In this document: one piece after another, positions 1,963 through 63,850 of the stretch | Position numbering within the stretch: the first letter of the stretch is position 1 | Layout of the letters: the number at the start of each line of letters is the position of its first letter | Assembly: GCA_910574835.1 (NCBI GenBank) | Contig: CAJTDE010000011.1 | Location: 62,001-126,000, forward strand | Reading direction: 5' to 3' | Source: Clostridia bacterium | GTDB taxonomy: Bacteria > Bacillota > Clostridia > Lachnospirales > Lachnospiraceae | Length of the DNA: 64,000 nt | Translations under genes and position numbers: made by a program | Notes under the pieces: generated by a model | What the model was told of the DNA's origin: nothing | The model's input: the letters and a program-made list of their open reading frames with translations, nothing else | The model's database searches: none

Positions 1963-2061
1963 CAGTTCCGTATCCCCCTCCCAGCGCCGTTTATTAGAAC
2001 AATTTCCGGTCACAAGTCCATGTGCCCGTAAATCGTTCTGGCTCTGTTCCGGGGGATACTG
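1963..2061 (-). repeat. U1 hairpin repeat, single copy
   Basis: Single copy of the U1 family that is tandem at 16917-17280 and 63607-63850. It starts with CAGTTCCG and ends in TACTG. The terminal stem GTATCCCCC (1970-1978) pairs perfectly with GGGGGATAC (2051-2059). The core keeps the family motifs AATTTCCGGTCACAA and TGTGCCCGTAAATCG. The stem sequence differs from other copies but still pairs. The element ends about 15 bp before the start codon of the alpha/beta hydrolase. Confidence 0.85.
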
Positions 2062-2071
2062 TTTCCTACTT

Positions 2072-2106
2072 TAATAAAAGAGGGCGCCCTTAAGCAGACG
2101 CCCTCC
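2072..2106 (-). terminator. Intrinsic terminator of the PTS operon
   Basis: Read on the minus strand, GAGGGCG (2099-2105) pairs with CGCCCTC (2080-2086), followed by TTTTATT. It lies just after the EIIBC stop codon. Confidence 0.85.
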
Positions 2107-2117
2107 TCTTCCTTACT

Positions 2118-3542
2118 TTAGGCTTTCTTAAGAGCCTTTTTTCCCTTATAATTTTTCAATCCGTCTCCGTCACCGAATCCAATAACAATTCCTACGGCCA
2201 GAGCTGCCACAAAAGCAACCGCACAGGCAATACCCGCATAGATAAGATTGGAACCCGGACCGCCGGCATACTGTAATATGGTCAGGAAATTGGAAGCTCC
2301 CATCGTATACACAGCCACGCCAAAGATACCGCCTACCAGACCGCCGATAAAGCCTCCGATAATCTGGCAAATCATAGCACGCTTATTTCTAAGCAGAATA
2401 CCGAACAGCGTAGGTTCGGAAATACCGCCCACAATCAGCGTAACCACATTGGCGCTTGCCATCTGCTTTTCCTCTCCCTTTGTACGCAGGAAGTAAGCAA
2501 GAGTCATACCCATCAGCGCATAGTTGGCAATGTTTGCACCTGCCAGCACAATCGGGTCAAAGCCCAAAGTCGTAATATTGATCAGTGCAATCTGCACAAT
2601 CGCCACGTGCATTCCCGTAGCAACAAAGAAAGGCCAAAAAGCGCCGAGAAGAGCAATTGCCAGAGGACCGGCTACGTTGTACAAGCCTTCGAAGAATGCA
2701 CTTAAAAGCATACCAATCCAGTTTCCGATCGGAGCCAGTACGCAGAACATCAGCGGAACCATTACAACCAGTGTACAGAAGGGAACGCCGATAATCTTGA
2801 TTACCTTCGGAACATACTTGTCAAAGAACTTAAATACATAGGACAGTGCAAACACCATCAGCAGGGACGGCAGTACCGACTGTGTATAATTGTTCAGCTG
2901 CATCGGAATAATTCCATAGACACTAAAAGGCTCTCCGGCTGTCACAATATTTAAAATATTCGGGTCAATCAGAAGACAGCTCAGCAACATAGCTAAAGCA
3001 ACGCTGGTATTGAGCTTCTTTGCGGCTCCCCATGCCACGAAAATCGGCATAAAATAAAATCCTGCATTTCCCACGATGTAAAGGGTCTGCATCAGAGGCG
3101 ACTCATTTGCCATCAGATTCAGCAAATCCGGCCCCAGAATTGCATAAAACATCTTGAAAAATCCGGCGCCCATCATAATCGAAAGGGTCGGTGCAATCGA
3201 ACCGGAAACATAATCCAGTATCTTTGCCGGAACCTTCTTAATATCAAAGGGCTCCTTATTGTCCAGATTTTCATCAATAGCCGCAGTCTGTCCTAAGCCT
3301 GCAATACCGCAGAACTCCGGATAAACCTCCGACACATGCTGTCCGATAATAATCTGGAACTGCTCGCCGGAAAACTGAGCGCCGAGCACGCCTTTGATTC
3401 CCTTAACCGCATCCATATCCACCTGTGACCTGTCCTTCAGATTCAGCCGCAGCCTGGTCATACAGTGAACTGCCTGGGAAACATTCTCCTTCCCGCCTAC
3501 GTTTTCGAGAATCTGATTGCATAAATCCGTATACTTTGCCAT
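2118..3542 (-). CDS. PTS beta-glucoside-type EIIBC
   Basis: 474-residue membrane permease of the glucose superfamily of PTS. The N-terminal EIIB domain (about 1-85) carries the phosphorylated Cys27 in the motif VHCMTRLRL. The EIIC domain (about 105-465) has multiple hydrophobic helices and takes up the sugar with phosphorylation. The C-terminal EIIA domain is absent; EIIA is supplied by the separate gene at 4608-5066. Start: ATG behind AGAGGAG. It is the last gene of the operon EIIA-licT-EIIBC and ends at a strong terminator. The likely substrates are beta-glucosides, judged from the LicT regulator and the GH1 neighbour; the exact sugar is unknown. Confidence 0.9.
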   Translation of the reverse strand: MAKYTDLCNQILENVGGKENVSQAVHCMTRLRLNLKDRSQVDMDAVKGIKGVLGAQFSGEQFQIIIGQHVSEVYPEFCGIAGLGQTAAIDENLDNKEPFDIKKVPAKILDYVSGSIAPTLSIMMGAGFFKMFYAILGPDLLNLMANESPLMQTLYIVGNAGFYFMPIFVAWGAAKKLNTSVALAMLLSCLLIDPNILNIVTAGEPFSVYGIIPMQLNNYTQSVLPSLLMVFALSYVFKFFDKYVPKVIKIIGVPFCTLVVMVPLMFCVLAPIGNWIGMLLSAFFEGLYNVAGPLAIALLGAFWPFFVATGMHVAIVQIALINITTLGFDPIVLAGANIANYALMGMTLAYFLRTKGEEKQMASANVVTLIVGGISEPTLFGILLRNKRAMICQIIGGFIGGLVGGIFGVAVYTMGASNFLTILQYAGGPGSNLIYAGIACAVAFVAALAVGIVIGFGDGDGLKNYKGKKALKKA

Positions 3543-3576
3543 ATCACTACTCTCCTCTTTCTCTCTGTTTTTATAT

Positions 3577-3600
3577 ACAGGAAATCCGTATTTCCTGTGC
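3577..3600 (-). other. Short hairpin in the licT-EIIBC gap
   Basis: Between licT and EIIBC (3543-3752) a perfect 9 bp stem, ACAGGAAAT / ATTTCCTGT with a 4-base loop, lies about 35 bp before the EIIBC start. It could act as an mRNA processing or stability element. The rest of this gap holds nothing I recognise. Confidence 0.45.
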
Positions 3601-3752
3601 CGTCAGAACGGGATGCGCGCTCCCCCGTCCTGTCAAAGCCTGTTTTGATTCCACGAAGTCAACTCCTTCACGGAAACAAAAAACCCGACACTATCCCAGA
3701 CCGCCAGAAATCTGCCGGACGAAACAAAGTGCCAGGTAAAGCCCCTTTCGGG

Positions 3753-4583
3753 TTACAATCCATCTTCCCTTGCGCAGAGCCGGTTGATATGTATCATCAG
3801 ATACAGTATTTCTTCCTTCGCCGGTTCTACCAACAAGGTTGCAGCTATATACTCTTTAATTTTTTCTCCAACTCGTTTTAACTCCGGAAACTCTTCGCAT
3901 ACACTCTCATAGAGCTTCTCATTTTCCGACTCCGGCACATCCAGGCTGCCAGAGCGTTTCAGCAGATATTTCAAATGTGTCACAAACCTGGAATAGCTGA
4001 AGCTGTCCCGGTCAATAATCACATTCATTCCGCTCTCCACAATATCCGTAATATCCTCCACGAAATGCTCAATGTCATTCCGCTCTGACGCCTGCTTTAC
4101 CTGCTGCTCCGCATTGATAAAATGCATGGCAATATTTCCCGCCTCGCTCTGAGGAAGCCGTATGGACAGCCGCTTGCCGATATGCTTAACGGCCCATTCC
4201 CCCAAACGCATCTCCTTCTCATAAAAATGCCGTATCTCATTTGTCATAGGGTTCTTTAAGACAAGCCCCTTTTTCGTATTCTCAATGGCAAAATTGATAT
4301 GATCACAAAGCGAAAACCAGAATATGGTATTAAATTCCATCTTAAGGTAGGCGCTTCCCTTACGGACAATCTCGTTGGTAACATCCAAAATATCCTCAGG
4401 AAGCTCATTCAGTAACGTAATATAATGCGGTTCCAGGTTATAGTAGGTTCGGTCAATTTGCGATAACGCAATCTCATAGGGCGCTTTCTGAAAGCCAATC
4501 CCCTTGCCAAATGCAATCACTTCATGATTGTTATCATCCAGGCAGACTGCCACATTGTTATTGATATTCCGAATAACCTTCAT
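3753..4583 (-). CDS. licT: BglG/LicT-family transcription antiterminator
   Basis: 276 residues, the normal family length. The N-terminal CAT RNA-binding domain (1-55, beginning MKVIRNINNNVAVC) is followed by PRD1 (about 65-170) and PRD2 (about 171-276). Conserved PRD histidines are visible in LCDHINFAIE, NIAMHFINAE, VTHLKYLLK and MIHINRL. In this family phosphorylation by EIIB and HPr on these histidines sets dimer state and RNA binding. The target is visible upstream of the operon: a RAT sequence at 5341-5368 overlapping a terminator. Start: ATG behind AAAGGGGGAG. Located between EIIA and EIIBC. Confidence 0.93.
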   Translation of the reverse strand: MKVIRNINNNVAVCLDDNNHEVIAFGKGIGFQKAPYEIALSQIDRTYYNLEPHYITLLNELPEDILDVTNEIVRKGSAYLKMEFNTIFWFSLCDHINFAIENTKKGLVLKNPMTNEIRHFYEKEMRLGEWAVKHIGKRLSIRLPQSEAGNIAMHFINAEQQVKQASERNDIEHFVEDITDIVESGMNVIIDRDSFSYSRFVTHLKYLLKRSGSLDVPESENEKLYESVCEEFPELKRVGEKIKEYIAATLLVEPAKEEILYLMIHINRLCAREDGL

Positions 4584-4607
4584 CTCTCCCCCTTTGTCCG
4601 CCGCCTG

Positions 4608-5066
4608 TTAAACCAGTGTCTCTCCCGAGGCCACCGTTCTCTTTCCCAAGTCAAAGGCATGATCATAGCCGGAAGGGAAAACCACCATAGTCGTAAGCTT
4701 ATACCCTTTTTGCTCCAAAGCCTCTTTATCAAAATTCACAATCGGCTCGCCGGCCTTCACCTTGGCCCCCTGCTGAATCAGAGGATGAAAACCCTCCCCA
4801 TTCAGTTCCACCGTATCCAGGCCGATATGTACGATACACTCAATTCCGTCCTTCGTCTTAATGCCTACCGCATGTCCGGTGGGGAATACTGTCTCCGCCG
4901 TGCCGCTCAGCGGCGCACAAACCGCTCCGTTAGCCGGAATTACCGCAAAGCCATCCCCCATAATCTTCTCCGAAAACACTCCGTCCGCAACCTCCGCAAG
5001 CGGAATCAGCTCGCCGTCAACCGGGGCCACAATCTTAAATTCCTCTTTCTTAAACAAGCCAAACAT
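4608..5066 (-). CDS. PTS glucose-type EIIA (free-standing)
   Basis: 152 residues, a complete single-domain EIIA of the Crr fold. The active-site histidine is in CIVHIGLDTVELNGEGF (about residue 80), with the second family motif FPTGHAVGIKTKDG just before it. It receives phosphate from HPr and passes it to the EIIB domain of the permease at 2118-3542, which lacks its own EIIA. First gene of the operon; start ATG behind ATAGGAGGATGAAAG. Its leader carries the RAT/terminator (5296-5368) and a U2 repeat, so its expression is probably conditional on LicT. Confidence 0.92.
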   Translation of the reverse strand: MFGLFKKEEFKIVAPVDGELIPLAEVADGVFSEKIMGDGFAVIPANGAVCAPLSGTAETVFPTGHAVGIKTKDGIECIVHIGLDTVELNGEGFHPLIQQGAKVKAGEPIVNFDKEALEQKGYKLTTMVVFPSGYDHAFDLGKRTVASGETLV

Positions 5067-5087
5067 CTTTCATCCTCCTATTTTAAA

Positions 5088-5225
5088 TCGCTGCGCGATG
5101 GCACTAAAGGGTAAAGCCGCTTCGACGCACCTGTAACGAGAGGAACTTTTATTCGAAAGGACACTCATGAAAGTTCCTCTCATGCGCCTTTGCAATTATT
5201 ATAGTCGCTGCGCGGCAGCACTAAC
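5088..5225 (-). repeat. U2 long hairpin repeat, copy 1
   Basis: About 120-130 bp element, also present at 33228-33350. The core is the long stem AGAGGAACTTT / AAAGTTCCTCT around ATTCGAAAGG. The flanking GACGCAC and ATGCGCC arms extend the pairing. The element ends (minus sense) in TCGCGCAGCGA, only a few bases before the AGGAGG of the EIIA gene. At 5232-5282 a truncated U1 repeat adjoins it (ATTCCAGTTCCATAATATCC). Confidence 0.8.
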
Positions 5226-5295
5226 CGGACTATTCCAGTTCCATAATATCCTAATTATACACCTAACAAAACACAATTTCCATTCCAAAAGGTAT

Positions 5296-5368
5296 AAAAA
5301 AACTTCTTCACCGCATACCGAAAAAACCAAGAAAATTTTCGGGAAAGCCTTCGAAGAAGTTACAAACC
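5296..5368 (-). promoter_or_regulatory. LicT-type RAT overlapping an intrinsic terminator
   Basis: On the minus strand the segment from 5368 to 5341 begins GGTTTGTAACTTCTTCGAAG and ends GCTTTCCC. This resembles the ribonucleic antiterminator (RAT) of bgl/sac systems: GG, TTTGTAAC, then AAGGC. The 5' arm of a terminator, AACTTCTTC (5361-5353), lies inside it. It pairs with GAAGAAGTT (5309-5301), which is followed by a T run (5300-5296). RAT folding and terminator folding are therefore mutually exclusive, the classic LicT/SacY arrangement. It lies about 20 nt after the predicted transcription start. Confidence 0.82.
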
Positions 5369-5390
5369 TATTATTTCTTTCACTGCTACA

Positions 5391-5419
5391 ATAGTAACGC
5401 CTCCCGCTCCATTTGTCAA
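5391..5419 (-). promoter_or_regulatory. Promoter of the EIIA-licT-EIIBC operon
   Basis: Minus-strand TTGACA (5419-5414), 17 bp spacer, TACTAT (5396-5391). The gap 5067-5498 thus holds, in order of transcription: promoter, RAT/terminator, truncated U1, U2, ribosome site. Confidence 0.85.
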
Positions 5420-5498
5420 TACCCATATGGTAAAATTCATCAAAATCTTTACAAAATATTACCCAAATCCCGCCACTCTCCCAATTTTGCGGCAGAAC

Positions 5499-6953
<1,455 letters not shown>

Positions 6954-6981
6954 TTATTTTCATTGAGTAAGGTAAATCCCG

Positions 6982-8919: not shown

Positions 8920-8956
8920 CTGCTCTCTCCTATTATAAATTCCGCAATATCCCTTA

Positions 8957-14993: not shown

Positions 14994-15020
14994 CTCTATA
15001 CATTCTCCTATTATAATTTC

Positions 15021-15124
15021 GCAATTCCACAATATCCCACACAGCACCATATTGTCAAGAAGAATTTCAGGTACGCAGCAGCCTGTATGGGATACTTGTT
15101 ACTCTTCACTCCGCGACCGGTAAC
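15021..15124 (-). repeat. Truncated U1 repeat plus 27 bp palindrome
   Basis: The gap between the transketolase B and kinase genes holds a U1-like end (GCAATTCCACAATATCCC, 15021-15038) close to the kinase ribosome site. It also holds a 27 bp imperfect hairpin (15098-15124) whose ends are GTTACTCTTCAC and CGCGACCGGTAAC. Similar hairpins lie at 20378-20404, 46778-46804 and 48998-49024. Confidence 0.65.
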
Positions 15125-15138
15125 GGACACTTCGCTTT

Positions 15139-16891: not shown

Positions 16892-16916
16892 ATTATGTAA
16901 ACATCTCCTATTCTTA

Positions 16917-17299
16917 TTCCAGTTCCGTAATATCTCTTCCGGTACACTTTATCTAAATCAATTTCCAGTCACAAATAGATGTGTCTGTAAATCGATTTGT
17001 GCACTGTAAGAGATATTACTGTTTTATTCCAGTTCCGTAATATCTCTTCCGGTACACTTTATCTAAATCAATTTCCAGTCACAAATAGATGTGTCTGTAA
17101 ATCGATTTGTGCACTGTAAGAGATATTACTGTTTTATTCCAGTTCCGTAATATCTCTTCCGGTACACTTTATCTAAATCAATTTCCGGTCACAAATAGAT
17201 GTGTCTGTAAATCGATTTGTGCACTGTAAGAGATATTACTGTTTTATTCCAGTTCCGTAATATCAAGAGATATTACTGTTTTTTATTCCGGTTCCGCAA
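16917..17299 (-). repeat. Tandem U1 hairpin repeats (three full copies plus one internally deleted)
   Basis: Three near-identical 110 bp units start at 16921, 17031 and 17141. A fourth (17251-17280) keeps only the two stem arms, the internal ~80 bp being deleted. Each unit has the stem GTAATATCTCTT / AAGAGATATTAC (12 bp perfect, e.g. 16927-16938 with 17008-17019). The interior carries AAATCAATTTCC, CACAAATAGATGTG and TAAATCGATTTGTGCACTG. A further U1 end (ATTCCGGTTCCGCAATC) abuts the isomerase stop. The block lies inside an operon and ends near the ribosome site of the transketolase gene. The 408 bp gap holds nothing else. Confidence 0.93.
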
Positions 17300-18700
17300 T
17301 CACTCGCCCCGAAGGTAAGCTTTTACATCCTCCTCAATGGGGTCATACAAATCGGCCTTGATTCCCAGGTACTTACATGCTTCATATAATACCGGAACTA
17401 CATTTTCATGGATTCCTACACAGTGATGGATGTAAGGGCCTTCCACAATCTTTGCTTCCAGACGCTTGATGTTCTCCACCTCTACCCATAAGTAGGTGCC
17501 CATACCCTTAGGTCCTTCCACGCCCTTTGCATTTCCAAGGAGCAGGGAGTACTCGCCGTTGTCGCCGTCGAATCTTGCCAGCGTCACCTGGCCGTGCTTT
17601 GCTTCGGCGGTAATGCTGCCCGGATGGTCAAAGGCCAGGGGATATGTAAGCTTCGGAGTCTCCTTTGCCACGGAAATCGGCCAGGGACCGCAGTGCTGCA
17701 GAAGCTCTCCGTTGGCAATATCCGGATGACGGATGGTCCAGTCTGCGAAGAAGCTACGCTTCTCTCCCATTCCGGCTGCCTCTACCAGAAGTGCGGTGAT
17801 GGCTCCGTGAATATCTGTTTCACAGACTACGGGGATTCCTTCCTCGTTCATCAGGGCGTTAGCTGCACAGGGCATAATGCCAATCTCTGACTGGAGCTGA
17901 TTCCAGCACTGGATAGCCGCTGCTTTGCAGCCGTATTTTTTCACCAGATGCATCATGGCTACCTTGAGAGCTGCCACATTCTCCAATTCGTTTTCTTTGA
18001 TTTGGATCTCCATATGCTCCCGGCAGTAACGGATGACCTCAGCAACCTCGGCGCCCTCCTCCTTTGCTTTCTTCATCTCATCCGTAAGCTCAGGCATGGG
18101 AATGGGGGAAAGCTGAATATTGAACTTCTCCAGAAGCTCGCCCTCGTTGCACATAGTGGACCAGAACTCAAAGGGCCGGGTGGATATCTGAAGAATCCGG
18201 ATATTCCGGAAGGTCTTAACCACATTACATACGGCCAGGAAATCTCTTAAACCGCGCTCAAATACGGGATCGCTTAAGCGGCAGTTGGTCATATAAGTGA
18301 AGGGGATACGGAAGCGGCGAAGTACCTTGCCGGTAGCAAAAAGGCCGCACTGTGTATCGCGGAGTCTTGTTCCGTCCGGCTCCGGCCGCTCATCCAAAGG
18401 ACCCCAGAGAAGCACGGGAACGCCAAGCTCCTTTGCCAGTCTTGCACATTCAAATTCTGTTCCGAAGTTGCAGTGGGGCAGAAAAAGGCCGTCCACCTTC
18501 TCCTTCTTAAATTTCTCTGCAATTTTATACATATCTTCATCATTGTAGAGAAGTCCCTCTTCATTGATGTCGGTAATATCCACAAAGTCAATTCCAAGCT
18601 CTTCTAAGCGCTTTGCCGTCAGTCCGCGGTACTTGATGGCATCCGGTGCACTGAAAATGCTTCTTCTGGTTGGTGCATAACCGATTTTGATCTTTTCCAT
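17300..18700 (-). CDS. L-fucose/arabinose isomerase-family sugar isomerase
   Basis: 466 residues from the ATG at 18700 (MEKIKIGYAPTRRSIFS), with AAGGAGGA 6 nt upstream; the in-frame extension to 18745 lacks a ribosome site. It shows the fold of FucI/AraA-type isomerases. The metal-ligand segment VVCETDIHGAITALL carries the Glu and Asp, and a C-terminal His lies in GPYIHHCVGIHENVVP. These enzymes convert an aldose to a ketose using Mn2+. First gene of the operon and closest to the divergent LacI regulator. Its ketose product would feed the FGGY kinase and then the split transketolase. The exact aldose is unknown; D-arabinose-like and branched pentoses are candidates. Confidence 0.83.
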   Translation of the reverse strand: MEKIKIGYAPTRRSIFSAPDAIKYRGLTAKRLEELGIDFVDITDINEEGLLYNDEDMYKIAEKFKKEKVDGLFLPHCNFGTEFECARLAKELGVPVLLWGPLDERPEPDGTRLRDTQCGLFATGKVLRRFRIPFTYMTNCRLSDPVFERGLRDFLAVCNVVKTFRNIRILQISTRPFEFWSTMCNEGELLEKFNIQLSPIPMPELTDEMKKAKEEGAEVAEVIRYCREHMEIQIKENELENVAALKVAMMHLVKKYGCKAAAIQCWNQLQSEIGIMPCAANALMNEEGIPVVCETDIHGAITALLVEAAGMGEKRSFFADWTIRHPDIANGELLQHCGPWPISVAKETPKLTYPLAFDHPGSITAEAKHGQVTLARFDGDNGEYSLLLGNAKGVEGPKGMGTYLWVEVENIKRLEAKIVEGPYIHHCVGIHENVVPVLYEACKYLGIKADLYDPIEEDVKAYLRGE

Positions 18701-19045: not shown

Positions 19046-20077
19046 ATGGCAATTACCGCAAAAGAACTGGCCAAAAAACTGAATCTTTCTGCCACAGCCG
19101 TATCTATGGCCCTGAATAATAAACCCGGAGTGAGCACCGCCACCCGGGATCAGGTAATTAAGGCCGCGGAGAAATACGGATATGATTTCACGCGCCTTTC
19201 CTTAAAGAACGGACATTCAGGAGATATTTACTGTATTATCTACCGTGCCCACAATGCAATTTTGAATTATATGCCGATTTTTTCAGAGCTGACAGACGGA
19301 ATTGAGCAGGAATGCCGGAACCAAGGATATCAGCTTAAGCTTGTTCAGATTAATGAAAATCGGGACGATCTCCAAAAACGGATTGAGGATCTGCGGATTG
19401 CCAACTGCGCCGGAATCATTCTTCTGGGAACGGAAACCAGTATTCATGTATGCAAAATGTTCCTTCAGCTTTCGGTGCCGGTTCTACTGCTGGATTCTCA
19501 TTTTGACTCTTTGGGGTGCAGCAGTGTGCTGATCAATAACCGTCAGGGAGCTTACCTTGCAACAAGTCTGCTCATTAACCAATGCGGCAGTCAGCCGGGG
19601 TATATGCGTTCCTCCTATCGTATTAGGAACTTCGAAGAACGGCGCACCGGCTTTGATACGGCGCTTCGGGAGCACGGAATGTCGCCCTCCAATTCGGTAA
19701 TTCATGAGCTGCCGCCCTCGATTGACGGAGCGCTTTCGGATATGCTGGAGATTATTGACCGGAAGGCAGCTTTGGCGAAATGCTATTTTGCGGATAATGA
19801 TTTAATTGCCATCGGCGCTATGAAGGCTTTGAAATTGCGTGGATATCGGATTCCGGAGGATGTGGCGATTGCAGGCTTTGACAATATTTCCGAGAGCCGG
19901 ATTGTAGAGCCTTCTTTGTCTACCATTGATATTCCCAGAACCTTTATGGGGCAGACCGCGGCAAGACAGTTGATCCATCAGATAACAACGCCGGTGCCTC
20001 ATACGGTAAAGATTGAGATTTCTACAAAATTGGTAAAACGGTTCTCCGTGCAGAGCGCTGCAGGAGCGGCGGTTTAA
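19046..20077 (+). CDS. LacI/GalR-family transcriptional regulator
   Basis: 343 residues. Helix-turn-helix at 4-23 (TAKELAKKLNLSATAVSMAL), hinge helix about 45-60, then a periplasmic-binding-like effector domain. Typical motifs are IILLGTETS, CYFADNDLIAIGAMKAL and IPEDVAIAGFDNI. Transcribed away from the isomerase operon, so it most likely controls that operon and responds to its sugar or phosphate intermediate. The perfect palindrome at 18915-18943 is the likely operator. Confidence 0.92.
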   Translation: MAITAKELAKKLNLSATAVSMALNNKPGVSTATRDQVIKAAEKYGYDFTRLSLKNGHSGDIYCIIYRAHNAILNYMPIFSELTDGIEQECRNQGYQLKLVQINENRDDLQKRIEDLRIANCAGIILLGTETSIHVCKMFLQLSVPVLLLDSHFDSLGCSSVLINNRQGAYLATSLLINQCGSQPGYMRSSYRIRNFEERRTGFDTALREHGMSPSNSVIHELPPSIDGALSDMLEIIDRKAALAKCYFADNDLIAIGAMKALKLRGYRIPEDVAIAGFDNISESRIVEPSLSTIDIPRTFMGQTAARQLIHQITTPVPHTVKIEISTKLVKRFSVQSAAGAAV

Positions 20078-20443
20078 AATGGGGGTGTCAGAATTTTTAC
20101 GACTGAATAGTCATTGAAACGGACAGGTCAAAAAGCGCAGACGCAGCGGTGATTATCTTAATAACAAGTATCGCGCGAAGTATGGAGGGACTCTTAGGAT
20201 TTACGGCGGGGCTTTTTGGCTTGTGTTGTCTGAGATATCACCATATCCTGTGTTTGCGTTCGGAAAATTCTGTAAAATCTCGCTTGCAATTTGGAAAAAT
20301 ATGTTATATACTACCTCTATCAAAGGATTCTAATTATGTTCGGACATTTCCGTCAGAAAAATCCATGAGATGAAAAAGTTACTGAGCACGGAGTACACAG
20401 TAACTGAAAACAACTAATAACATTTAACAAGGAAAGAAAGATA
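20078..20443. other. Gene-poor spacer upstream of the Rpn gene
   Basis: No convincing gene. One candidate promoter (TTGCAA 20284-20289, 17 bp, TATACT 20307-20312) and a copy of the 27 bp palindrome (20378-20404, GTTACTGAGCAC...CAGTAAC) are visible. A 74-codon open frame at 20149-20373 lacks a ribosome site and is probably spurious. Confidence 0.5.
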
Positions 20444-20472
20444 TTGTATCAGATCAGGAAATCCTTTATAAT
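20444..20472 (+). promoter_or_regulatory. Promoter of the Rpn nuclease gene
   Basis: TTGTAT (20444-20449), 17 bp spacer, TATAAT (20467-20472). The U3 repeats follow within the predicted leader. Confidence 0.72.
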
Positions 20473-20507
20473 AAAGTCGGATATACTGCTATTCTTATCT
20501 TTCTTTC

Positions 20508-20660
20508 AAGGCATACCTGCATGCTCTAAACATGAGCGGAGCAAGGAAACACCCTTCGGGCATACCTATATGCTCTAAAAACATGAGCGAATCAAGGAAA
20601 CACCCTTCGGGTATACCTATATGCTCTAAAAACATGAGCGAATCAAGGAAAGGAGAACGC
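20508..20660 (+). repeat. U3 tandem repeats (about three 50 bp units)
   Basis: Units of 49-51 bp, with CATACCT/TATACCT landmarks at 20512, 20561 and 20612. Each contains AAACACCCTTCGGG, GTATACC and a small hairpin GCTC...GAGC, then AAGGAAA. The last unit runs from AAGGAAA into GGAGAACG, the ribosome site of the Rpn gene, so the repeat itself contributes the Shine-Dalgarno. The same family occurs on the other strand before ligA and the RluF-like gene. Confidence 0.85.
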
Positions 20661-20664
20661 AGTA

Positions 20665-28430: not shown

Positions 28431-28495
28431 CTTCCTTTCCTTAAGATCTGTGCATGCCTTCTGCACGTAAAGGTATGCCGGAGGGTGTTTCTATG
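28431..28495 (-). repeat. U3 repeat, single copy before ligA
   Basis: Minus sense: AAACACCCTCCGG, CATACC, the hairpin GTGCAGAAGGCATGCAC, then TTAAGGAAAGGA, which acts as the ligA ribosome site. Same layout as 20508-20660 and 29255-29425 but with a different hairpin stem. Confidence 0.78.
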
Positions 28496-29254: not shown

Positions 29255-29425
29255 TCCTTTCCTTAATATTGCACATGTTTTCTGTGCATGATGGTATACC
29301 CGCAGGGTGTTTCCTTAATATTGCACATGTTTTCTGTACATGATGGTATACCCGCAGGGTGTTTCCTTAATATTGCACATATCTTTTGTACATAGTGGTG
29401 TGTCCACAGGGTATTTCTTTAATCC
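29255..29425 (-). repeat. U3 tandem repeats (three 52 bp units plus a decayed end)
   Basis: Period 52 bp (GGTATACCC at 29293 and 29345). In minus sense each unit reads AAACACCCTGCGGG, TATACC, a hairpin such as TGCACAGAAAACATGTGCA, then TTAAGG. The unit nearest the gene ends in TTAAGGAAAGGA, the ribosome site of the RluF-like gene. The distal unit (29394-29425) is degenerate. Confidence 0.87.
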
Positions 29426-33215: not shown

Positions 33216-33227
33216 ATTTTCCTCCTA

Positions 33228-33350
33228 ACTAAGTCGCTGCGCGACGGCACTGAAGGATAAAGTCACTTCGGCGCACCTGTAATAAGAGAAACTTTTATTC
33301 GAAAGGGCACTCATAAAAGTTCCTCTCGTGCGCCTTTGCGACTTTACCGG
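33228..33350 (-). repeat. U2 long hairpin repeat, copy 2
   Basis: Same element as 5088-5225. Long stem AGAGAAACTTTT / AAAAGTTCCTCT around ATTCGAAAGGG, extended by GGCGCAC / GTGCGCC and AGTC / GACT, so nearly the whole element folds on itself. In minus sense it ends TCGCGCAGCGACTTAG, a few bases before AGGAGG. A truncated form (5' part only) is at 38451-38490, before the EIIBCA gene. Confidence 0.82.
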
Positions 33351-33381
33351 TCGGCAGAAGGCAGAAATATCCGTATAAAAC

Positions 33382-38431: not shown

Positions 38432-38450
38432 TGATATCCCCTCCTGTTTA

Positions 38451-38490
38451 AAATTACTGCGCAGCAGCGCCAAAGAGTAAAGCCGGTGCG
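38451..38490 (-). repeat. Truncated U2 repeat before the EIIBCA gene
   Basis: The plus-strand segment TACTGCGCAGCAGCGCC and AGTAAAGCCGGTGCG matches the first 40 bp of U2 (5088-5130) loosely. As with full copies, it ends just before the ribosome site. Confidence 0.55.
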
Positions 38491-44180: not shown

Positions 44181-44266
44181 CTCTGCCTCCTGCTTATTGA
44201 AATTCCGCAATATCCTGTATCATATTTTTTTACTTGGTACACACTCCCCGCTCCGCATTTCCTTTC

Positions 44267-46738: not shown

Positions 46739-46777
46739 GAAGGTTCCCATGTCAGGATCTAAAAACAATCTGAAAAG

Positions 46778-46804
46778 GTTACTGTTCACTCCGTGACCAG
46801 TAAC
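46778..46804. repeat. 27 bp palindrome (GTTACTG...CAGTAAC family)
   Basis: GTTACTGTTCACT...GACCAGTAAC, with the flanking CGCTTCGCG also shared with the 15098 copy (CACTTCGC). Other copies: 15098-15124, 20378-20404 and 48998-49024. Confidence 0.65.
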
Positions 46805-46913
46805 ACGCTTCGCGATGCATAGAAACCGCAAAAAGATGCGATTTCGCGCTGAGAAACCTGGGATTTCCGCAGGGAAAAGTACGGCAGCACGGACACACAG
46901 GCTTCTTTTGCAT

Positions 46914-53401: not shown

Positions 53402-53402
53402 C

Positions 53403-57643: not shown

Positions 57644-57970
57644 CTAAAACACCACCTGCACCAACAGCATATAACAAGCGGTCCCTCCCGCTATAGAAAC
57701 CAGCATCTGCCGCCTCCAAAGGTGAAGCCCCGCCACAACCCCAATGCTAACAAGCTCCGGCACCCCCCGGCTTCCCGCAAACAAGCTCACATTTTTAAGA
57801 CAATAAACCACCAAAAGCCCAAACACAGCCGGCGGAAGCACCTTCCCAAGATACCGTACATACCTTGGAGTAGGCTTCCCCGCCGGAAAAATCAAAAACG
57901 GCAGAAACCGGGTCAGCACCGTCCCCAGAACCACCATCCCAATCGTAATCATCTGCTCCGCAAACGTCAT
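57644..57970 (-). CDS. azlD: AzlD-family branched-chain amino acid exporter subunit
   Basis: 108 residues from the ATG at 57970, four membrane helices ([15 protein letters not shown] motif of the family). Partner of AzlC in export of branched-chain amino acids or analogues. Start uncertain: a TTG at 57985 with AGGATAGGA just upstream is possible, giving 113 residues. It follows azlC by 15-30 bp. Confidence 0.88.
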
Positions 57971-58000
57971 AACATCATATCCCAATCCTATCCTTTTTTA

Positions 58001-58714
58001 TCAATCCCCGCACTCTCCCCGTCTCTCAAGGGGCTTCCGAAGAAACGTAAGCACCCCAAGAATCACAGCCATAGCCGGAATCAAAAAGCGGTCCGCCCCA
58101 AAAGCAACGAGACACAAAAGCGTAACCCCGACCCCCACAAGAGAGCTTACATGCTCTTTCTCCTTCATCCACTGCTCCATAAAAATCGCAACAAACATTG
58201 CTGTCATCACAAAATCCAGGCCCTCCGTATCAAACCGAATCAAAGAACCGAAGATTCCGCCAAGGGCCGCCCCGAAAAACCAGTAAAAATGATTCAGCAG
58301 CGTCACAAAAAACATAAACCATCCCCTGTCAATCCCTTCGGGAATCCTGGCCGTATAATTAATAGAAAAACTCTCATCACACATGCCGAAAATCAAATAA
58401 AAATCCTTCCACCCATTTCCCCGATATTTATCAAGCATGGACAGACCGTAAAATAAATGCCGGGCGTTGATCATCAGCGTCATGGCCAGCACCTGGAACG
58501 GATTAAAAGCCCCAAGCAGCAGATTCACGGCCACAAACTCCACGGACCCGGCAAAAATAGTCAAACTCATCAGCATCGGATACCAAAAAGGAAAACCCGA
58601 CACATTCATATAAATTCCATAAGTCATTCCCAGAAACCAGAACCCGGCAAAAATGGGAATTGTATGGGGAAATGCGGCCTTAAATGCTTTTCCTCGCCTT
58701 CCTCTCTCTGACAT
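58001..58714 (-). CDS. azlC: AzlC-family branched-chain amino acid exporter
   Basis: 237 residues from the ATG at 58714 behind TAGGGGG; an ATG at 58741 would overlap the upstream gene. Family motifs FAGSVEFVAVNLLLG and MTLMINARHLFYGLSML; about seven helices. Together with AzlD it forms the export complex. It follows the NSS transporter by 11 bp and is probably cotranscribed with it. Confidence 0.92.
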   Translation of the reverse strand: MSERGRRGKAFKAAFPHTIPIFAGFWFLGMTYGIYMNVSGFPFWYPMLMSLTIFAGSVEFVAVNLLLGAFNPFQVLAMTLMINARHLFYGLSMLDKYRGNGWKDFYLIFGMCDESFSINYTARIPEGIDRGWFMFFVTLLNHFYWFFGAALGGIFGSLIRFDTEGLDFVMTAMFVAIFMEQWMKEKEHVSSLVGVGVTLLCLVAFGADRFLIPAMAVILGVLTFLRKPLERRGECGD

Positions 58715-58725
58715 CCCAAAGCCCC

Positions 58726-60123
58726 CTACATGGAAATCCATCCAAGCACGCTTGCAATGGAGCTTAATAAAATCACCGCAATGCAGACAGGTGCCAAAAA
58801 CCGCATAAACAGGCTGTACATTCCCTTGCGGCGAAAACGGGAGGACTGCTCCACCTCCTTTGCAATCCGATCAAGCCCCACCACGCGGGTAACCAGAAAG
58901 CAGGTAGCCAGAGCCGCCACCGGCATCATCAGAGAATTTGTGAGAAAATCAAAAAAGTCAAGAATGGACATTCCCAATATCTTCACAAAATCCAGCACAC
59001 CGAAGCCAAGGGCCGAAGCGGAGCCGAATACCACCATAATTCCCCCCATTAAAAGGGTAGCTTTATGACGGCTCCATCCGAGCTGATCCTCAAAGGTGGA
59101 CACACCGGATTCCGCCAGAGAAATCGCACTGGTAAGGGCCGCAAGAAGCACCAGAAGGAAGAACATCACACCTGCCCCGGTTCCAAAGCCCATACTTGCA
59201 AATACCTTGGGAATCGTAATAAACATCAGCGACGGACCTGCCTGCAGTGTCTCCGGTTCCCCGCCGGAAAAAGCAAAGACCGCCGGGATAATCATCAGTC
59301 CCGCAAGCATGGCAATGGCCGTGTCAAAAATTTCCACCTGATTCGTGGATTTTTCAATATCCACATCTTCCTTAATATAAGAACCGTAGGTATACAGAAT
59401 CCCCATAGCAATCGACAGGGAATAAAACATCTGTCCCATAGCCGCAACTACCGTCATCCAGGAGAAGTCTTCAAGCTTGGGAACCAGAAAATATTTAACG
59501 CCCTCAAAAGCTCCGGGCCGGGTCATGGAATAGCCTGCCACAAATATCGCCAAAATCACAAGCACCGGCATCATTACCTTAGAAACACGCTCCACGCCCT
59601 GCTTCACGCCTGCAAAAAGAACTGCAATAACAACCAGACTGAAGAGCAGGAACCAAAGCTCCGCGGAAAAGCCTTCCCCAATAAAGCCGGTAAAATAATT
59701 TCCCTCCGCCAGCGCAGCCGTATTTCCTTTCAAGTACTCAAAAAGATACTTTGTCACCCATCCGCCGATAACACTGTAATAAGGCACAATCAGCATGGGA
59801 ATTACCGCGTTGATCCATCCTCCGAAGCGAAACGCCAAGCCCTTTCCAAAGGCTCCGAAGGCTCCCACCGGGCTTTTCTTTGTCATGCGCCCAAGGGCTG
59901 TCTCCGATACGATCAGCGCATAACCAAAGGTCATCATCAGAATCAGATACACCAGAAGAAAAATGCCTCCTCCGTATTTTGCTGCCAGATAGGGAAAACG
60001 CCAGATATTCCCCAGACCTACGGCTGAACCGGCAACTGCCAGAACATAGCCCATTTTTCCCGAAAAGCTGCTTCGGGATCTTCCTACGTGCAGCAGCGCT
60101 CCTGTATTTCCACCTTCCCTCAT
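58726..60123 (-). CDS. Sodium-dependent amino acid transporter (NSS/SNF family)
   Basis: 465 residues from the ATG at 60123, six nt after AAGGAGG; the first ATG (60127-60129) lies too close to that site. LeuT-like fold: GYVLAVAGSAVGLGNIWRFP (helix 1, Na+ and substrate site) and GVMFFLLVLLAALTSAISLAE (cut: LAALTSAISLAE, helix 8). The C-terminus is short, as in bacterial members with 11-12 helices. Imports an amino acid with Na+. Operon with azlCD: an importer beside an exporter, perhaps to balance pools. Confidence 0.92.
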   Translation of the reverse strand: MREGGNTGALLHVGRSRSSFSGKMGYVLAVAGSAVGLGNIWRFPYLAAKYGGGIFLLVYLILMMTFGYALIVSETALGRMTKKSPVGAFGAFGKGLAFRFGGWINAVIPMLIVPYYSVIGGWVTKYLFEYLKGNTAALAEGNYFTGFIGEGFSAELWFLLFSLVVIAVLFAGVKQGVERVSKVMMPVLVILAIFVAGYSMTRPGAFEGVKYFLVPKLEDFSWMTVVAAMGQMFYSLSIAMGILYTYGSYIKEDVDIEKSTNQVEIFDTAIAMLAGLMIIPAVFAFSGGEPETLQAGPSLMFITIPKVFASMGFGTGAGVMFFLLVLLAALTSAISLAESGVSTFEDQLGWSRHKATLLMGGIMVVFGSASALGFGVLDFVKILGMSILDFFDFLTNSLMMPVAALATCFLVTRVVGLDRIAKEVEQSSRFRRKGMYSLFMRFLAPVCIAVILLSSIASVLGWISM

Positions 60124-60228
60124 TTTCATCCTCCTTGTAATTTTCTTATATTCATCCTTACCTTTTTATCACTTTGAGCGGTATATTTCTTTTACTCTGT
60201 CGTTAAAAAGATAACGCTATGTCTTTCT

Positions 60229-60257
60229 ATTGTATCGGAACCGGTGGAGGAACGCAA
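60229..60257 (-). promoter_or_regulatory. Promoter of the NSS-azlCD operon
   Basis: Minus-strand TTGCGT (60257-60252), 17 bp spacer, TACAAT (60234-60229). Confidence 0.72.
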
Positions 60258-60320
60258 GCTTTTTAGCAGGTGAAATTTGGTAAAAGGTAAAACAGCGCAA
60301 ATCTGTTATCGCTTGGGTAT

Positions 60321-61241
60321 TTACTGCTTTCTTCGTTCTCTAAAATAGCTTATTCCAAGAAATGATACTGCCAATATTAAAATAATGAGAGCGTTTAATT
60401 GATTGAATGACTGTTCGATGTGGGTTCTTTTTATATATCCGTCTATTATAAGATTGATTCCATATTCTTCCGCAAACATCAGGAAGCATATCAGGGAAAG
60501 AGCAAAATATTTTTTTCTGCTCCAGATGTGCGTGAGGATGCCGTAGAGACCCCATATTCCCAAAAGCGCTGCAACTGCAATGCACATTCCCATCGTGCGC
60601 AGAAGCGGAACTTGCAAAAGAACGTTTAAAACGGCCAGGTAAGGAAAAATCATCAGGCTTAATGCAAGCAGGCTTTTGCAGATTCGTTTCTTCTGTGCCT
60701 GGAAAAGAGGCGTAAGGATTCCCCAGGCAGCTATCAGGGACGCGAGCACAATCCGGGACCAGGATAATTCTCCCGAGACGGCAAAATTGCAGATGAGGCA
60801 TACAATGGCGGCGAGGAAGAAGCCGGCGCTCATTCCTATGAACAGTATATCCCATAACTTTTTTACCCTCTGGTCGGCTGATTTGCGGGAATACTTTAAT
60901 GCTTCATTTATCAGGGTTTCTGTCTCTTCTTTATTTTCTGTTCCATCCGTAAACTCTGTCTGTTCCTCTTCCACCGTTTTGGCTGCAATTGGTGTCTCAT
61001 TATCCGGGTCCATTTCCATTTTTTCACCGCTGAGAAGCTCTCCTGTGGATACTCCCAGGGCTTTTGCAAGCGGAATCAACAAACTGATATCCGGGCTGCT
61101 GACAGCCCTCTCCCATTTGGAAACGGCTTTATCTGTCACTCCCAGCTTTCCTGCCAGATCCTTTTGGGTTAAATTTCTGGCTTTTCTCATTTTCAATATG
61201 AAATCAGCCATCTTTTTTTGTTCATATAATTCATGTTCCAT
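60321..61241 (-). CDS. XRE-type HTH regulator with membrane domain
   Basis: 306 residues. Helix-turn-helix at about 15-70 (RKARNLTQKDLAGKLGVTDKAVSKWER, shown as NLTQKDLAGKLGVTDKAV), an acidic linker (75-115), then five to six hydrophobic helices (about 132-300). Such proteins are probably membrane-tethered regulators. The target is unknown. No partner gene adjoins. Confidence 0.88.
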   Translation of the reverse strand: MEHELYEQKKMADFILKMRKARNLTQKDLAGKLGVTDKAVSKWERAVSSPDISLLIPLAKALGVSTGELLSGEKMEMDPDNETPIAAKTVEEEQTEFTDGTENKEETETLINEALKYSRKSADQRVKKLWDILFIGMSAGFFLAAIVCLICNFAVSGELSWSRIVLASLIAAWGILTPLFQAQKKRICKSLLALSLMIFPYLAVLNVLLQVPLLRTMGMCIAVAALLGIWGLYGILTHIWSRKKYFALSLICFLMFAEEYGINLIIDGYIKRTHIEQSFNQLNALIILILAVSFLGISYFRERRKQ

Positions 61242-61296
61242 ACATTAATCCTTTCCTGCCGTGCTGCGAAGTATTTTTCATGTAGTATGATAAAGA

Positions 61297-61336
61297 GCTG
61301 CCGGGAAATAAGACTGAACACTTATTTCCCGGCAGC
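61297..61336 (-). terminator. Perfect 16 bp hairpin between yczE and the XRE gene
   Basis: GCTGCCGGGAAATAAG (61297-61312) and CTTATTTCCCGGCAGC (61321-61336) with an 8-base loop. In minus sense it is followed by TCTTTATCAT, a weak T tract. Confidence 0.7.
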
Positions 61337-61459
61337 CCCATAACCTCAACTCTCTTTCAGTATAAAGGACTTTTTTAGGAAGAACAACCGATTTATAGTT
61401 TAGAAACGCAGTTCTACCGTTGGTTTAGTTGATAAATAAACTTTCCGCAAAACGGCCGG

Positions 61460-62107
61460 CTAAGAAAGCAGTTTATTCACCAATTTTTCGCTCCTGGGCA
61501 GGAAAAATCCTGCCACCGGCCCTACCAGGCAGGCGCAGACAATCGTGCCGATTCCAAAAGAGCCTCCCAGCAAAAAGCCCACAGCCACGAAACCTACATC
61601 CACAATAACACGCACAATGCTGAACTTAAAATGGCTCTTATCACTGATTACAAGCGCCACCAGATCATTCGGGCCCGTTCCGGCATCTGATTTGATCACT
61701 ATCGTCATGCCGAAAGCCAGAATCACACAGCCAGCCGCCAAAACGGGAAGCTTAAACCACAAAGACCGCTCCGCCGCAAACAGAAATCCCATAAAATATG
61801 TAAAAAAGTCAATGATCGGTCCGCCGCAAATCATACAGAGAAGGGTTCCGATTTTAATATAACTCCTGTCCACAAATAAAAGCACCGCAATAATCAGAAA
61901 GCATATGGCAATATGCGTATAGCCATGCGTCAGCGCCTCCCATCCGGTCCCTTCGCTCACCGTCCGGAAAATTCCCTGCACCAGTACATTAAAAGGATCT
62001 GCCCCCAGATCGGCAAGCAGGAACAAGGTCACGCCCAGATGGGCAATCGTAAGTCCTGCAAGTAAAATCAACACCCTCAGCAGCGTTTCTCTCACAGTTC
62101 TTTTCAT
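61460..62107 (-). CDS. YczE/YyaS-family membrane protein
   Basis: 215 residues, five to six membrane helices. Motifs GLTIAHLGVTLFLLADLGADPFNV (shown as LADLGADPFNVL) and SDAGTGPNDLVAL are family hallmarks (COG2364). Function not established. Start: ATG behind GGGAGGGTG. Stands alone. Confidence 0.86.
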   Translation of the reverse strand: MKRTVRETLLRVLILLAGLTIAHLGVTLFLLADLGADPFNVLVQGIFRTVSEGTGWEALTHGYTHIAICFLIIAVLLFVDRSYIKIGTLLCMICGGPIIDFFTYFMGFLFAAERSLWFKLPVLAAGCVILAFGMTIVIKSDAGTGPNDLVALVISDKSHFKFSIVRVIVDVGFVAVGFLLGGSFGIGTIVCACLVGPVAGFFLPRSEKLVNKLLS

Positions 62108-62229
62108 AATCTCTACACCCTCCCTACAATTAATACGCTAAACACAGCAATCACATTCCACTCCGACAGGGTGTGTATGAGCCGCCCAATTCGGCATCTT
62201 CTCCGGACACAGCTTGAAACTGCATAAGC

Positions 62230-62877
62230 TTATTTCAAATCCTCCAAAAGCCGCTCCCACGCATCTTCATGCTCCACATAATACAGCGGACAGGGTTTGC
62301 CGCCCGCGTCATAGTGGCGCAGCACATCCTCAGGCTGCAAATCATATTCATACAGCAGCCAATCTACCAAATGCAGAAGAGATTGATACGTAGCACCCGT
62401 AAAGCTTCCGTCTTCCGCAAGGTGACAGCACTCAATGGAAATAGAATCGTAATTTCTCCCCTTCACCGCATAGGCAATCTCCTCCCGGGGGATGCACTGT
62501 ATAATCTCCCCGTCATACCCGATAATAAAGTGAGAGCTTGCCGATGTCTCCTGGGTATCCTTCAGATTTTCAAAATAATTCCTGTTCTCCTCCGCCGAGG
62601 TCCCCGGATTGGCCGTGTAGTGGACAAAGATATTTTTCACCTTCTCCAATGCCTCCCCCGGCCTGGAATATGGATTCTCCGTCAACAGCATTTCCATAAT
62701 CTCCGGCGGATCAACCGGCTCTCTTGCAGCTTTTCGAATGATTTTGTGGATTCCAAAGCCCAGTCCCACCCCAAAGAGCAATACCACTAAAAGAGCAAAA
62801 CCGCGGGCAAAAATTGCCCTTCTCCTCTGCCGCTTCTTCCTGTGCTCCCACTCTCTTCGGCTCATTCGTCTGCGCAT
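62230..62877 (-). CDS. N-acetylmuramoyl-L-alanine amidase (amidase_2) with membrane anchor
   Basis: About 215 residues from the ATG at 62877 (MRRRMSRREWEHRKKRQ), behind AAAGGA at 10 nt. An in-frame start at 62973 would overlap trkA by 29 bp and has poorer spacing. A basic N-terminus precedes one membrane helix (about 22-42), then the amidase domain: zinc His in NIFVHYTANPGT, later HFIIGYDGEIIQCIPREEIAY and VLRHYDAGGKPCPLYY. Cleaves the peptide from the glycan in peptidoglycan outside the cell. Confidence 0.87.
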   Translation of the reverse strand: MRRRMSRREWEHRKKRQRRRAIFARGFALLVVLLFGVGLGFGIHKIIRKAAREPVDPPEIMEMLLTENPYSRPGEALEKVKNIFVHYTANPGTSAEENRNYFENLKDTQETSASSHFIIGYDGEIIQCIPREEIAYAVKGRNYDSISIECCHLAEDGSFTGATYQSLLHLVDWLLYEYDLQPEDVLRHYDAGGKPCPLYYVEHEDAWERLLEDLK

Positions 62878-62944
62878 CCTCTTAGATTCCTTTGGCTGTC
62901 CTTCACCCGGACTTTGCTTCCCCAAAACCCGTTTTTCTTCCCCG

Positions 62945-63595
62945 TCACATTCTGTGTAAGATCTTGTCAACATCCTTCTTCTTTCCGATCACCATCAAAT
63001 GCTGATCCTTTTCAAATATATGATCTGCCGACGGGAGCAGGTTCAAGTCCTTCCCTGTCTTGATTCCAAGGATACTTACCTGATACCGCACGCGGAAATT
63101 CAGAGCCCGGATGCTGTGTCCCAGCCATTCCTTAAGAAGCGGAATCTCGTAAATGCCATAGTCATCCGTCAGTTCCAGATAATCAAAAACATGATCGGAA
63201 CTGAACTTCTTCGCCGCCCGCTCCGCCGTGTCTCTCTCCGGATAAATCACCTCGTCCGCCCCGTTGCGCAGCAAAAACTTTGCCTGTATATCCCGCTCAG
63301 CCTTGCTGACCACATAGGAGGCGCCAAGCTCTTTTAACAAGCTTGTAATCTCCAGACTATTCTGAAAATTGCCGCTGATGCAGACGAAGCACACATCAAA
63401 ATTGCGGATGCCAAGGCTTTTTAACACCTCCACATTGGTACAGTCGCCAATTTGAGCGCTTGTCACAATGGGCAGCAGATCCGCCAGGCGCTCCTCATCC
63501 TCATCCACAATCATAATTTCATTGTCCAATTCCGCCATATTCATGCAGAGCAGATGGCCAAATTTTCCCATTCCTATCATTAAAATTGATTTCAT
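62945..63595 (-). CDS. TrkA/KtrA-family potassium channel regulatory subunit
   Basis: 216 residues. N-terminal RCK Rossmann domain (GMGKFGHLLCMNMAELDNEI, acidic residue in VDEDEE) for nucleotide binding and a C-terminal TrkA_C domain (about 135-216). Gates the K+ channel subunit whose C-terminus is encoded at 63858-64000. Start: ATG behind ATAGGATAGAG. A U1 repeat block separates the two genes and ends close to this ribosome site. Confidence 0.92.
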   Translation of the reverse strand: MKSILMIGMGKFGHLLCMNMAELDNEIMIVDEDEERLADLLPIVTSAQIGDCTNVEVLKSLGIRNFDVCFVCISGNFQNSLEITSLLKELGASYVVSKAERDIQAKFLLRNGADEVIYPERDTAERAAKKFSSDHVFDYLELTDDYGIYEIPLLKEWLGHSIRALNFRVRYQVSILGIKTGKDLNLLPSADHIFEKDQHLMVIGKKKDVDKILHRM

Positions 63596-63606
63596 ATCTC
63601 TATCCT

Positions 63607-63850
63607 ATTCCAGTTCCGTAAAATTCTTCCCAGTACACTCACATGAAATCAATTTCCAACCACAAAACCATGTGCTTGTAAATCGATTTGTGCACTGTGA
63701 AGTATTTTACTGTATCCAGTTCCGTAAAATTCTTCCCAGTACACTCATATGAAATCAATTTCCAACCACAAAACCATGTGCTTGTAAATCGATTTGTGCA
63801 CTGTGAAGTATTTTACTGTATCCAGTTCCGTAAAATTCTTCCCAGTTACA
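63607..63850 (-). repeat. Tandem U1 hairpin repeats before trkA (two full copies plus a fragment)
   Basis: Full units start at 63611 and 63717 (period 106 bp) and a fragment at 63823. Stem GTAAAATTCTTC (63618-63629) / GAAGTATTTTAC (63699-63710) has one mismatch. The interior shares GAAATCAATTTCC, CCATGTG and TAAATCGATTTGTGCACTG with the block at 16917. The stem differs from the other blocks but still pairs. Same strand relation to the following gene as all other U1 copies. Confidence 0.92.

Follow-up and report, generated by a model that had tools for sequence, protein, structure and literature searches.

Three families of short hairpin-forming repeats end at the ribosome-binding site of the following gene in a Lachnospiraceae genome

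Three unrelated families of short repeats, here called U1, U2 and U3, run up to the Shine-Dalgarno sequence (SD) of the following gene in a 64,000-nucleotide stretch of DNA from a Clostridia bacterium of the Lachnospiraceae (contig CAJTDE010000011.1 of assembly GCA_910574835.1, positions 62,001 to 126,000; G000:C11:62001-126000 in our numbering), hereafter the window. We regard them, with reasonable rather than high confidence, as three families of short non-coding hairpin-forming mobile repeats that insert in one orientation at the SD. Insertion would take place between the stop codon of the upstream gene, or within the end of that gene, and the GGAG of the next, and the 3' end of the element would rebuild the SD.

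All three families share the layout M-(H-M)n-SD, in which M is a short SD-proximal motif and H a hairpin unit, and each family's final unit extends into the SD. Forms with n=0 are referred to as scars; they are what a sequence-only reading of the window had taken for truncated copies, and the architecture of the three families had escaped that reading. In U1, M is GATATTACGGAACTGGAA(TA) and H is a hairpin of ~88 nt starting CAGTAATATC, giving arrays of the form M-(H-M)n-GGAG with 1 to 5 copies of M in the sample described below. U2 consists of a left hairpin starting TCCGGCTAAG, a long hairpin GGTAAAGTCGC..GCGACTTTACC, a short hairpin GTCGC-GCA-GCGAC and then AATAGGAGG, while U3 is built of 51-52-nt units joined at AAGGAAA. 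Unit lengths are thus 51-52, about 106-110 and about 120 nt, and elements measure about 52-175 bp. U1 is a single imperfect palindrome with CAG/CTG ends; no terminal inverted repeats were seen by eye in U2. Units within one U1 array are mostly near-identical and have arm changes in common, which points to concerted evolution of the arrays. Where U2 is nested behind the M of U1 or of U2, the left junction reads AATAG followed directly by TCCGGC, and a collapsed U2 scar, GGAACCGGAATAGTCCGGCTAAAAAAGGAGG, was noticed behind a U1 motif at C1:48548 of the same genome.

This genome (hereafter the own genome) comprises 5.0 Mb in 133 contigs; the assembly is fragmented and, by a tool's estimate, 4.6% contaminated, and tandem copy numbers may be misjudged in it. 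Placement was recorded in a sample of 864 kb, namely 800 kb from contigs C1, C9, C2 and C5 together with the window (17% of the genome), chosen this way so that copies were not picked by eye. Within it, 745 genes were called with our own simple hexamer/SD script, the starts thus not being those of an annotation, and counts from pattern searches depend on the mismatches allowed. Across the whole genome, the U1 end motif fused to GGAG (ATTACGGAACTGGAANNGGAG, up to 3 mismatches) gives 165 matches, against 1 for the reversed pattern. In the sample, TTACGGAACTGGAA (up to 2 substitutions) gives 87 matches, of which 12 lie within called genes and 75 are intergenic, all 75 pointing to a same-sense gene. 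There are 49 U1 arrays, 10 inside called genes and 39 intergenic; the latter are same-sense in 39/39 cases, 31 of them end 11-26 nt before a called start, and 33 are followed within 16 nt by an SD-like GGAG, GAGG or AGGA. U2 forms 32 arrays, one inside a gene and 31 intergenic, of which 30 are same-sense and lie 16-24 nt before a start, with SD-like sequence in 31/31. The 10 U1 and 1 U2 matches inside genes were excluded; several are chance coding matches, and at least one (C1:278948) is part of an array. Under random placement, 54% of copies would be same-sense and 3.9% both same-sense and at 9-26 nt. The observed placement differs sharply from this null, nor do copies lie as often 3' of convergent genes, so that neither outcome named by the sequence-only reading as refuting its proposal was seen in this sample.

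For U3, the end motif with 5 substitutions proved too loose (21 matches, 13 in genes, mostly chance), and the head motif was used instead; it gives 6 matches in 3 arrays of the sample, all same-sense. Twelve further U3 loci of the 19 in the own genome were read, and 11 of them show the end of a unit, then GAAAGGA and an open reading frame (ORF), the ORF found at the twelfth (L066) beginning within the repeat. In the relative G156, which has 55 U3 matches, all 20 of the 20 copies retrieved carry AAGGAAAGG, or a sequence differing little from it, and then an ORF of at least 60 codons. U2 and U3 accordingly share the position of U1, as had been proposed. The elements are numerous: allowing 6 mismatches, motif M of U1 is found at 43/741 genes and that of U2 at 31/741, against 0 and 1 for controls. 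BLAST against the own genome returned 79 matches to U1 (40/145 candidates scored), 117 to U2 (40/170) and 19 to U3 (18/18), each list tailing into weak matches and those of U1 and U2 including matches of a palindrome to the opposite strand.

Could such placement be what is left after random insertion? Repeats resembling miniature inverted-repeat transposable elements might land anywhere, with strong purifying selection tolerating only SD-adjacent copies in one orientation. Coding insertions are indeed expected to be purged, and most sites lie in co-directional gene pairs that offer little other non-coding space. The same sample, however, holds 25 intergenic regions linked by other repeats (a mixed set, in which 13 belong to one palindromic type, 5 to a second and 7 to neither), which occupy all intergenic types, 6/25 of them convergent, and in which a repeat end lies near a start it points to in just 1/25. 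Neutral sites thus exist, since other repeats persist in all intergenic types, yet U1 and U2 are almost never found there. The BLAST component of 79 linked intergenic regions that holds U1 and U2 includes 2 convergent ones, the first a triple U2 array discussed below as an exception and the second a chance link without an array. With an orientation shared by 69/70 arrays, and with the junction of the clean presence/absence pair described below lying within the SD itself, we disfavour this explanation and consider it very improbable.

Relatives differ in what they hold at orthologous junctions, which may be empty, carry a scar, or be filled with U1, U2 or both, whereas the SD and the sequence 3' of it are largely conserved. 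Before the N-terminal half of transketolase, the window carries a U1 array on the minus strand (16913..17301) with a 5' M, one mini-hairpin and three 110-bp units. Among orthologues of this gene, which include those of Bacterium 1XD21-13 and mouse-gut isolates, locus L183 has one U1 in place of the own three units, L184 has U2 behind a U1 scar, diverged sequence resembling U1 is seen in L181 and L185, and L180 and L182 have no element; GGAGATGTTTACATAATATG is kept at this junction in the own genome, L180, L181 and L184. The same variable filling is met at the junction before rbsD, where a U1 remnant (8931..8953, minus strand) lies between the upstream stop codon and the SD and the L181 site is empty, and at that before the FGGY kinase gene, where a U1 remnant (GGGATATTGTGGAATTGCGAAATTATAATA; 15009..15038, minus strand) corresponds to empty sites in L181 and L183 and to full U1 elements in L180 and L184. 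Empty sites at these two junctions have at most about 16 nt from stop codon to GGAG. Before ligA, a single diverged U3 unit (28436..28491, minus strand) corresponds in L180, over the stretch examined, to a complete unit plus a portion of a second. In the RnfC/Rnf-Nqr operon, the junction before C9:96406 measures 355 nt with U1 in the own genome, 249 in G158, 81 with U1 in G156 and 69, a scar, in G154; without an element it measures 12 nt in G164 and 15 in G157, and the genes overlap by 4 in G153 and by 1 in G155. Several element-free junctions are constant in length (18 nt in 6/6 genomes, 19 nt in 5/5, -8 in 7/7 at one and 6/8 at another), and others vary, for example from 77 to 223 nt.

Evidence at closer range comes from one strain, G158, which is 96-98% identical to the own genome over long matches (a 20-kb stretch was tested; one 503-nt match is 91% identical). 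At 86 co-directional junctions with both flanks collinear, an element is present in both genomes at 30, in neither at 51, in the own genome only at 2 and in G158 only at 3, these single-genome cases including weak pattern matches that are not counted as real differences. One clean presence/absence of U2 was found, at C1:329487-329662 of the own genome, where the difference amounts to 173 bp. G158 reads GCAGAGTTTTTACAG directly followed by GAGGATTAGAACATG; the own genome reads GCAGAGTTTTTACAG, then TCCGGCTAAG...CTTAAAATAG, then GAGGATTAGAGCATG. The U2 insert sits within the SD, which is split as CAG^GAGG, and rebuilds it; AG alone is common to both junctions, which allows a duplication of 0-2 nt. 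The SD of G158 lies in the final codons of the upstream gene (LQED-stop), and in the own genome U2 gives that gene a new end, LQSG-stop (translated manually, following the frame of our gene call). The polarity of this pair is best read as insertion. That the SD and much of the sequence 3' of it are common to orthologous sites with and without an element, that different families occupy the same junction across species and that U2 splits the SD in the clean pair all support the suggestion, made from the window alone, that insertion is targeted to this spot.

A transposase with DNA specificity for GGAGG-like targets would yield the SD position as a by-product, and both the CAG^GAGG junction and the AG that precedes the U2 left end in 22/31 matches (some of the others being chance matches) would suit it. 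Nevertheless, 161/377 intergenic GGAGG and 47/173 AGGAGG in the sample lie away from any SD, yet almost no array does; a longer context, with an A/T-rich 5' side and a spacing to ATG, would be needed. We give this explanation little credence: bare GGAGG is insufficient as a target, because so many of its intergenic occurrences are not SDs. The persistence of other repeats elsewhere and a junction inside the SD favour the ribosome-binding-site context being read over selection, and we infer for the favoured insertion of mobile repeats that recognition of the SD region, and not selection alone, sets the place. One common machinery would move all three families. A bolder version, which we hold to be unlikely, is that what this machinery detects is the ribosome-binding site itself and not a DNA sequence, perhaps on mRNA or via the ribosome and reverse transcription, and that it inserts three unrelated hairpin RNAs there; the three families would share position, orientation and host range because one such machinery inserts them.

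Once in place, the elements turn over. Between the own genome and G158, U1 repeat number has changed at C9:95008, 96052 and 97007 (3 versus 2 units twice, 1 versus 0) and U3 unit number at L068, L069 and L076; hairpin tips are deleted at C9:91852 and 64480, and a hairpin has collapsed at C2:197879. Copy-number change and hairpin loss thus occur between strains 96-98% identical. Slippage between the direct repeats of M would make arrays grow and shrink and, through loss of H, would leave the n=0 scars. At C1:323723-323914 we also observed that the own genome has U2 where G158 (contig C1, L289-L300) has a chimera of a U1 left half and a U2 right half that ends at the SD. Tight operons can tolerate insertion, since the SD and its spacer are left intact and stop codons are supplied by the element. 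It would turn overlapping or roughly 10-nt junctions into hairpin spacers of 70-400 nt, which probably uncouple the translation of operon neighbours.

The U1 hairpin itself is conserved. In 27 units of the own genome, one per array, selected for the end motif, for being 103 nt long and for having CAG at the left end, irrespective of pairing, RNAalifold gives 33 pairs, 22 of which are changed on both sides; none of five measures is equalled in 500 shuffles, and the signal is lost when the partners are slid. The G158 units of the array at C9:96052 have changes in one arm that match those in the other (AGCAGCGCC/GGGGCTGC, against AGCAACGCC/GGGGTTGC in the own genome). Such covariation could be expected of selected 5' untranslated region modules whose hairpin and M bind or are processed by, for example, CsrA, S1 or an RNase, tune translation and spread where useful, copies elsewhere being lost. 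The sense strand also folds better than the antisense in one copy of each family (z of -8.3/-7.4 for U1, -4.9/-2.0 for U2 and -2.8/-1.3 for U3), but the fold of another U2 copy is weaker (z -1.8). An excess of G.U over A.C pairs in U1 (136 to 24) was seen in 68 ungapped units that had, however, been picked for outer-arm pairing allowing G.T; in the 27 one-per-array units it is 55 to 15 over all pairs and, after exclusion of two positions at which G.U is fixed or frequent, 23 to 13, which is not significant (p 0.13). Predicted accessibility of the SD is 0.63 against 0.52 in shuffled sequences for U1 (31 leaders, native higher in 22/31), 0.44 against 0.39 for U2 (30 leaders) and 0.43 against 0.44 for element-free genes (58 of 70 drawn, the 12 without an SD-like motif having been dropped). 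The U1 SD is hence more open than in shuffled sequence, as regulation might have it, and an SD-sequestering switch or thermometer is rejected as a general model because predicted accessibility is not lowered.

CsrA is a candidate partner for such modules. Motif M of U1 contains GGA three times at 6-nt spacing, a spacing which we take to be CsrA-like, and CsrA is present in 8/8 genomes of the genus that have U1 and U2, versus 1/8 of the others. The GGA-rich motif of U1 may be functionally linked to CsrA, or the split may simply reflect a clade, in which case many other genes would show it too; U2 has just one GGA next to the start. Occupancy, moreover, varies among orthologues, the downstream genes examined have no common function and the predicted fold leaves the SD exposed, so that the common role in translation or RNA processing suggested by the sequence-only reading is not demonstrated. 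We therefore think selected regulatory modules rather unlikely as the explanation of the placement, although U1 covariation and the better predicted folding of the sense strand make some RNA-level role possible.

U1 and U2 occur in the same 8/16 genomes of the genus. Among 150 sampled genomes of the family, with up to 5 candidates scored in each, both were found only in the own genome and G013. U3 is present in those 8 genus genomes, with single weak matches in G150 and G152. A Y1 transposase (PF01797) was found in 8/16 genus genomes, the own included, but not in the U1-bearing G157, G158 and G164; as a partner it is not supported, being absent from the U1-rich G158.

Several points weigh against mobile repeats that insert at the SD. 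The shared distribution of the three families may mark only one clade, and exact placement could also result from selection for a function. Most junctions with an element are filled in both the own genome and G158, and the one clean case of gain or loss has its polarity assigned by parsimony, without an outgroup for the gene. Eight of the 39 intergenic U1 arrays have no called start where they end; judged by eye from the next 40 nt, two are remnants followed by U2, three have more U1-like sequence after them, and three have an uncalled ATG within 30 nt, with a clear SD before only one (C1:5905). One triple U2 array (C9:71578-71838, ending TAATAGGATG) faces an opposing gene, the only clear exception of 31. 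Finally, no mobilising enzyme or autonomous copy was found, and no long U2 containing a coding insert was seen in the sampled DNA. Among 23 left ends of U2 (own sample and the first two batches from G158), 20 have a right end within 260 nt; the other 3 are a chance coding match, the collapsed scar mentioned above and a truncated copy. The corresponding U1 pattern is too loose, 87/136 left ends having no right end, and those inspected were mostly chance.

In the window, every repeat site named by the sequence-only reading is present and the downstream genes, whose functions are unrelated, are confirmed by Pfam. Its observation that copies end shortly before the SD is confirmed; one remnant is not flush with its SD, and another SD is weak. 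On the minus strand, one diverged U1 unit (CAGTATCCCCC..GGGGGATACGGAACTGGAATA; 1958..2061) precedes an alpha/beta hydrolase gene. Upstream of the EIIA gene, a scar of U1 motif M (GGATATTATGGAACTGGAATA; 5231..5251) is followed on its 3' side by a nested U2 element (5079..5230) that ends at the SD. Further U2 sequences on this strand are an element before a transglutaminase-like gene (33226..33373) and a remnant of motif M before the phosphotransferase system gene EIIBCA (38445..38475). The U1 remnant before the MFS_2/GPH symporter gene (AGGATATTGCGGAATTTCAATAAGCAGGAGG; 44196..44216) is followed by AATAAGCAGGAGG, which leaves it near the SD and not flush, and the U1 array before trkA (M and two 106-bp units; 63606..63837) is followed by the weak GGAT. 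A U3 array of 52-bp units (29257..29417), also on the minus strand, precedes a pseudouridine synthase gene, and another on the plus strand (20508..20651), with 51-bp units ending AAGGAAA before GGAG, precedes a PDDEXK_2 gene. The leader of ~150 nt upstream of the latter array is itself repeated, window 20077-20664 matching C5:169191-169556 of the own genome. At the gathering score, the sole threshold used, Rfam has 0 matches in the window; the window has no tRNA, and the U1 array has no match in a plasmid collection.

Other repeats of this genome were noticed alongside. Large palindromic intergenic repeats with ends like TATCCGGTGTCCGGCTGTTCGCG make up ~13 of the 25 contrast regions and occur in every intergenic type (for example C2:33939-34251, C2:90345-90717 and C9:73134-74203). 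A further dispersed repeat around GTTACTGTTCACTCCGTGACCAGTAAC, linked by BLAST to this group, lies at window positions 46773-46871 and 15098-15135 and at C9:85601-86003 and C9:108668-109125.

If U1, U2 and U3 are indeed mobile repeats inserting at the SD, insertion at this site has provided a sizeable fraction of the genes here with a hairpin leader of variable form, or with the scar of one. Such genes would constitute a natural matched set with and without structured leaders, and operon neighbours would have a route to lose translational coupling. One would also have to ask by what means a repeat locates a ribosome-binding site.

The open-access papers that searches returned, judged by titles and the beginnings of abstracts, describe no SD-abutting hairpin repeats in Lachnospiraceae, the nearest systems being the mycobacterial interspersed repetitive units (MIRUs) and the TAACTGA repeats. 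Repetitive extragenic palindromic sequences (REPs) and the REPINs they form are short hairpin-forming palindromes associated with Y1 transposases (REP-associated tyrosine transposases, RAYTs). To our knowledge REPs are not tied to SDs, and they differ from the repeats described here in that U1-bearing genomes were found in which no Y1 transposase was detected. BOX elements of pneumococcus are modular, with an A-B(n)-C layout of variable copy number, which M-(H-M)n resembles; we know of no description of BOX as fixed in one orientation at the SD.

TAACTGA repeats, found in marine Beggiatoaceae and some cyanobacteria and Bacteroidetes, are tandem direct repeats, mostly forward, placed just before start codons without preference for a functional class; their units, 7 nt long, lie across the position at which an SD would be expected, and few canonical SDs are present (PMC4679880). 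U1, U2 and U3 are similarly tandem, direct, mostly forward and placed before start codons, and the downstream genes examined belong to no common functional class. They differ in being structured units of 52-120 nt without TAACTGA heptamers, and SD-like sequence nearly always follows them (33/39 U1, 31/31 U2).

In effect, although at another site, we read the three families as resembling MIRUs. These occur in tandem copies, and a fixed orientation with respect to genes is one of their defining features. The orientation of U1 and U2 with the downstream gene (39/39 and 30/31) is likewise fixed. MIRUs are described as inserting at start codons, having an internal ORF coupled at -4 nt and doing little harm to the downstream gene (PMC12548453); short, apparently mobile repeats at gene junctions that leave the downstream gene little damaged are thus common to both. 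The elements described here stop instead at the SD, 11-26 nt before the start. They are set further apart from MIRUs, as those are described, by the strongly hairpin-forming nature of U1 and by the use of one and the same site by three unrelated families.

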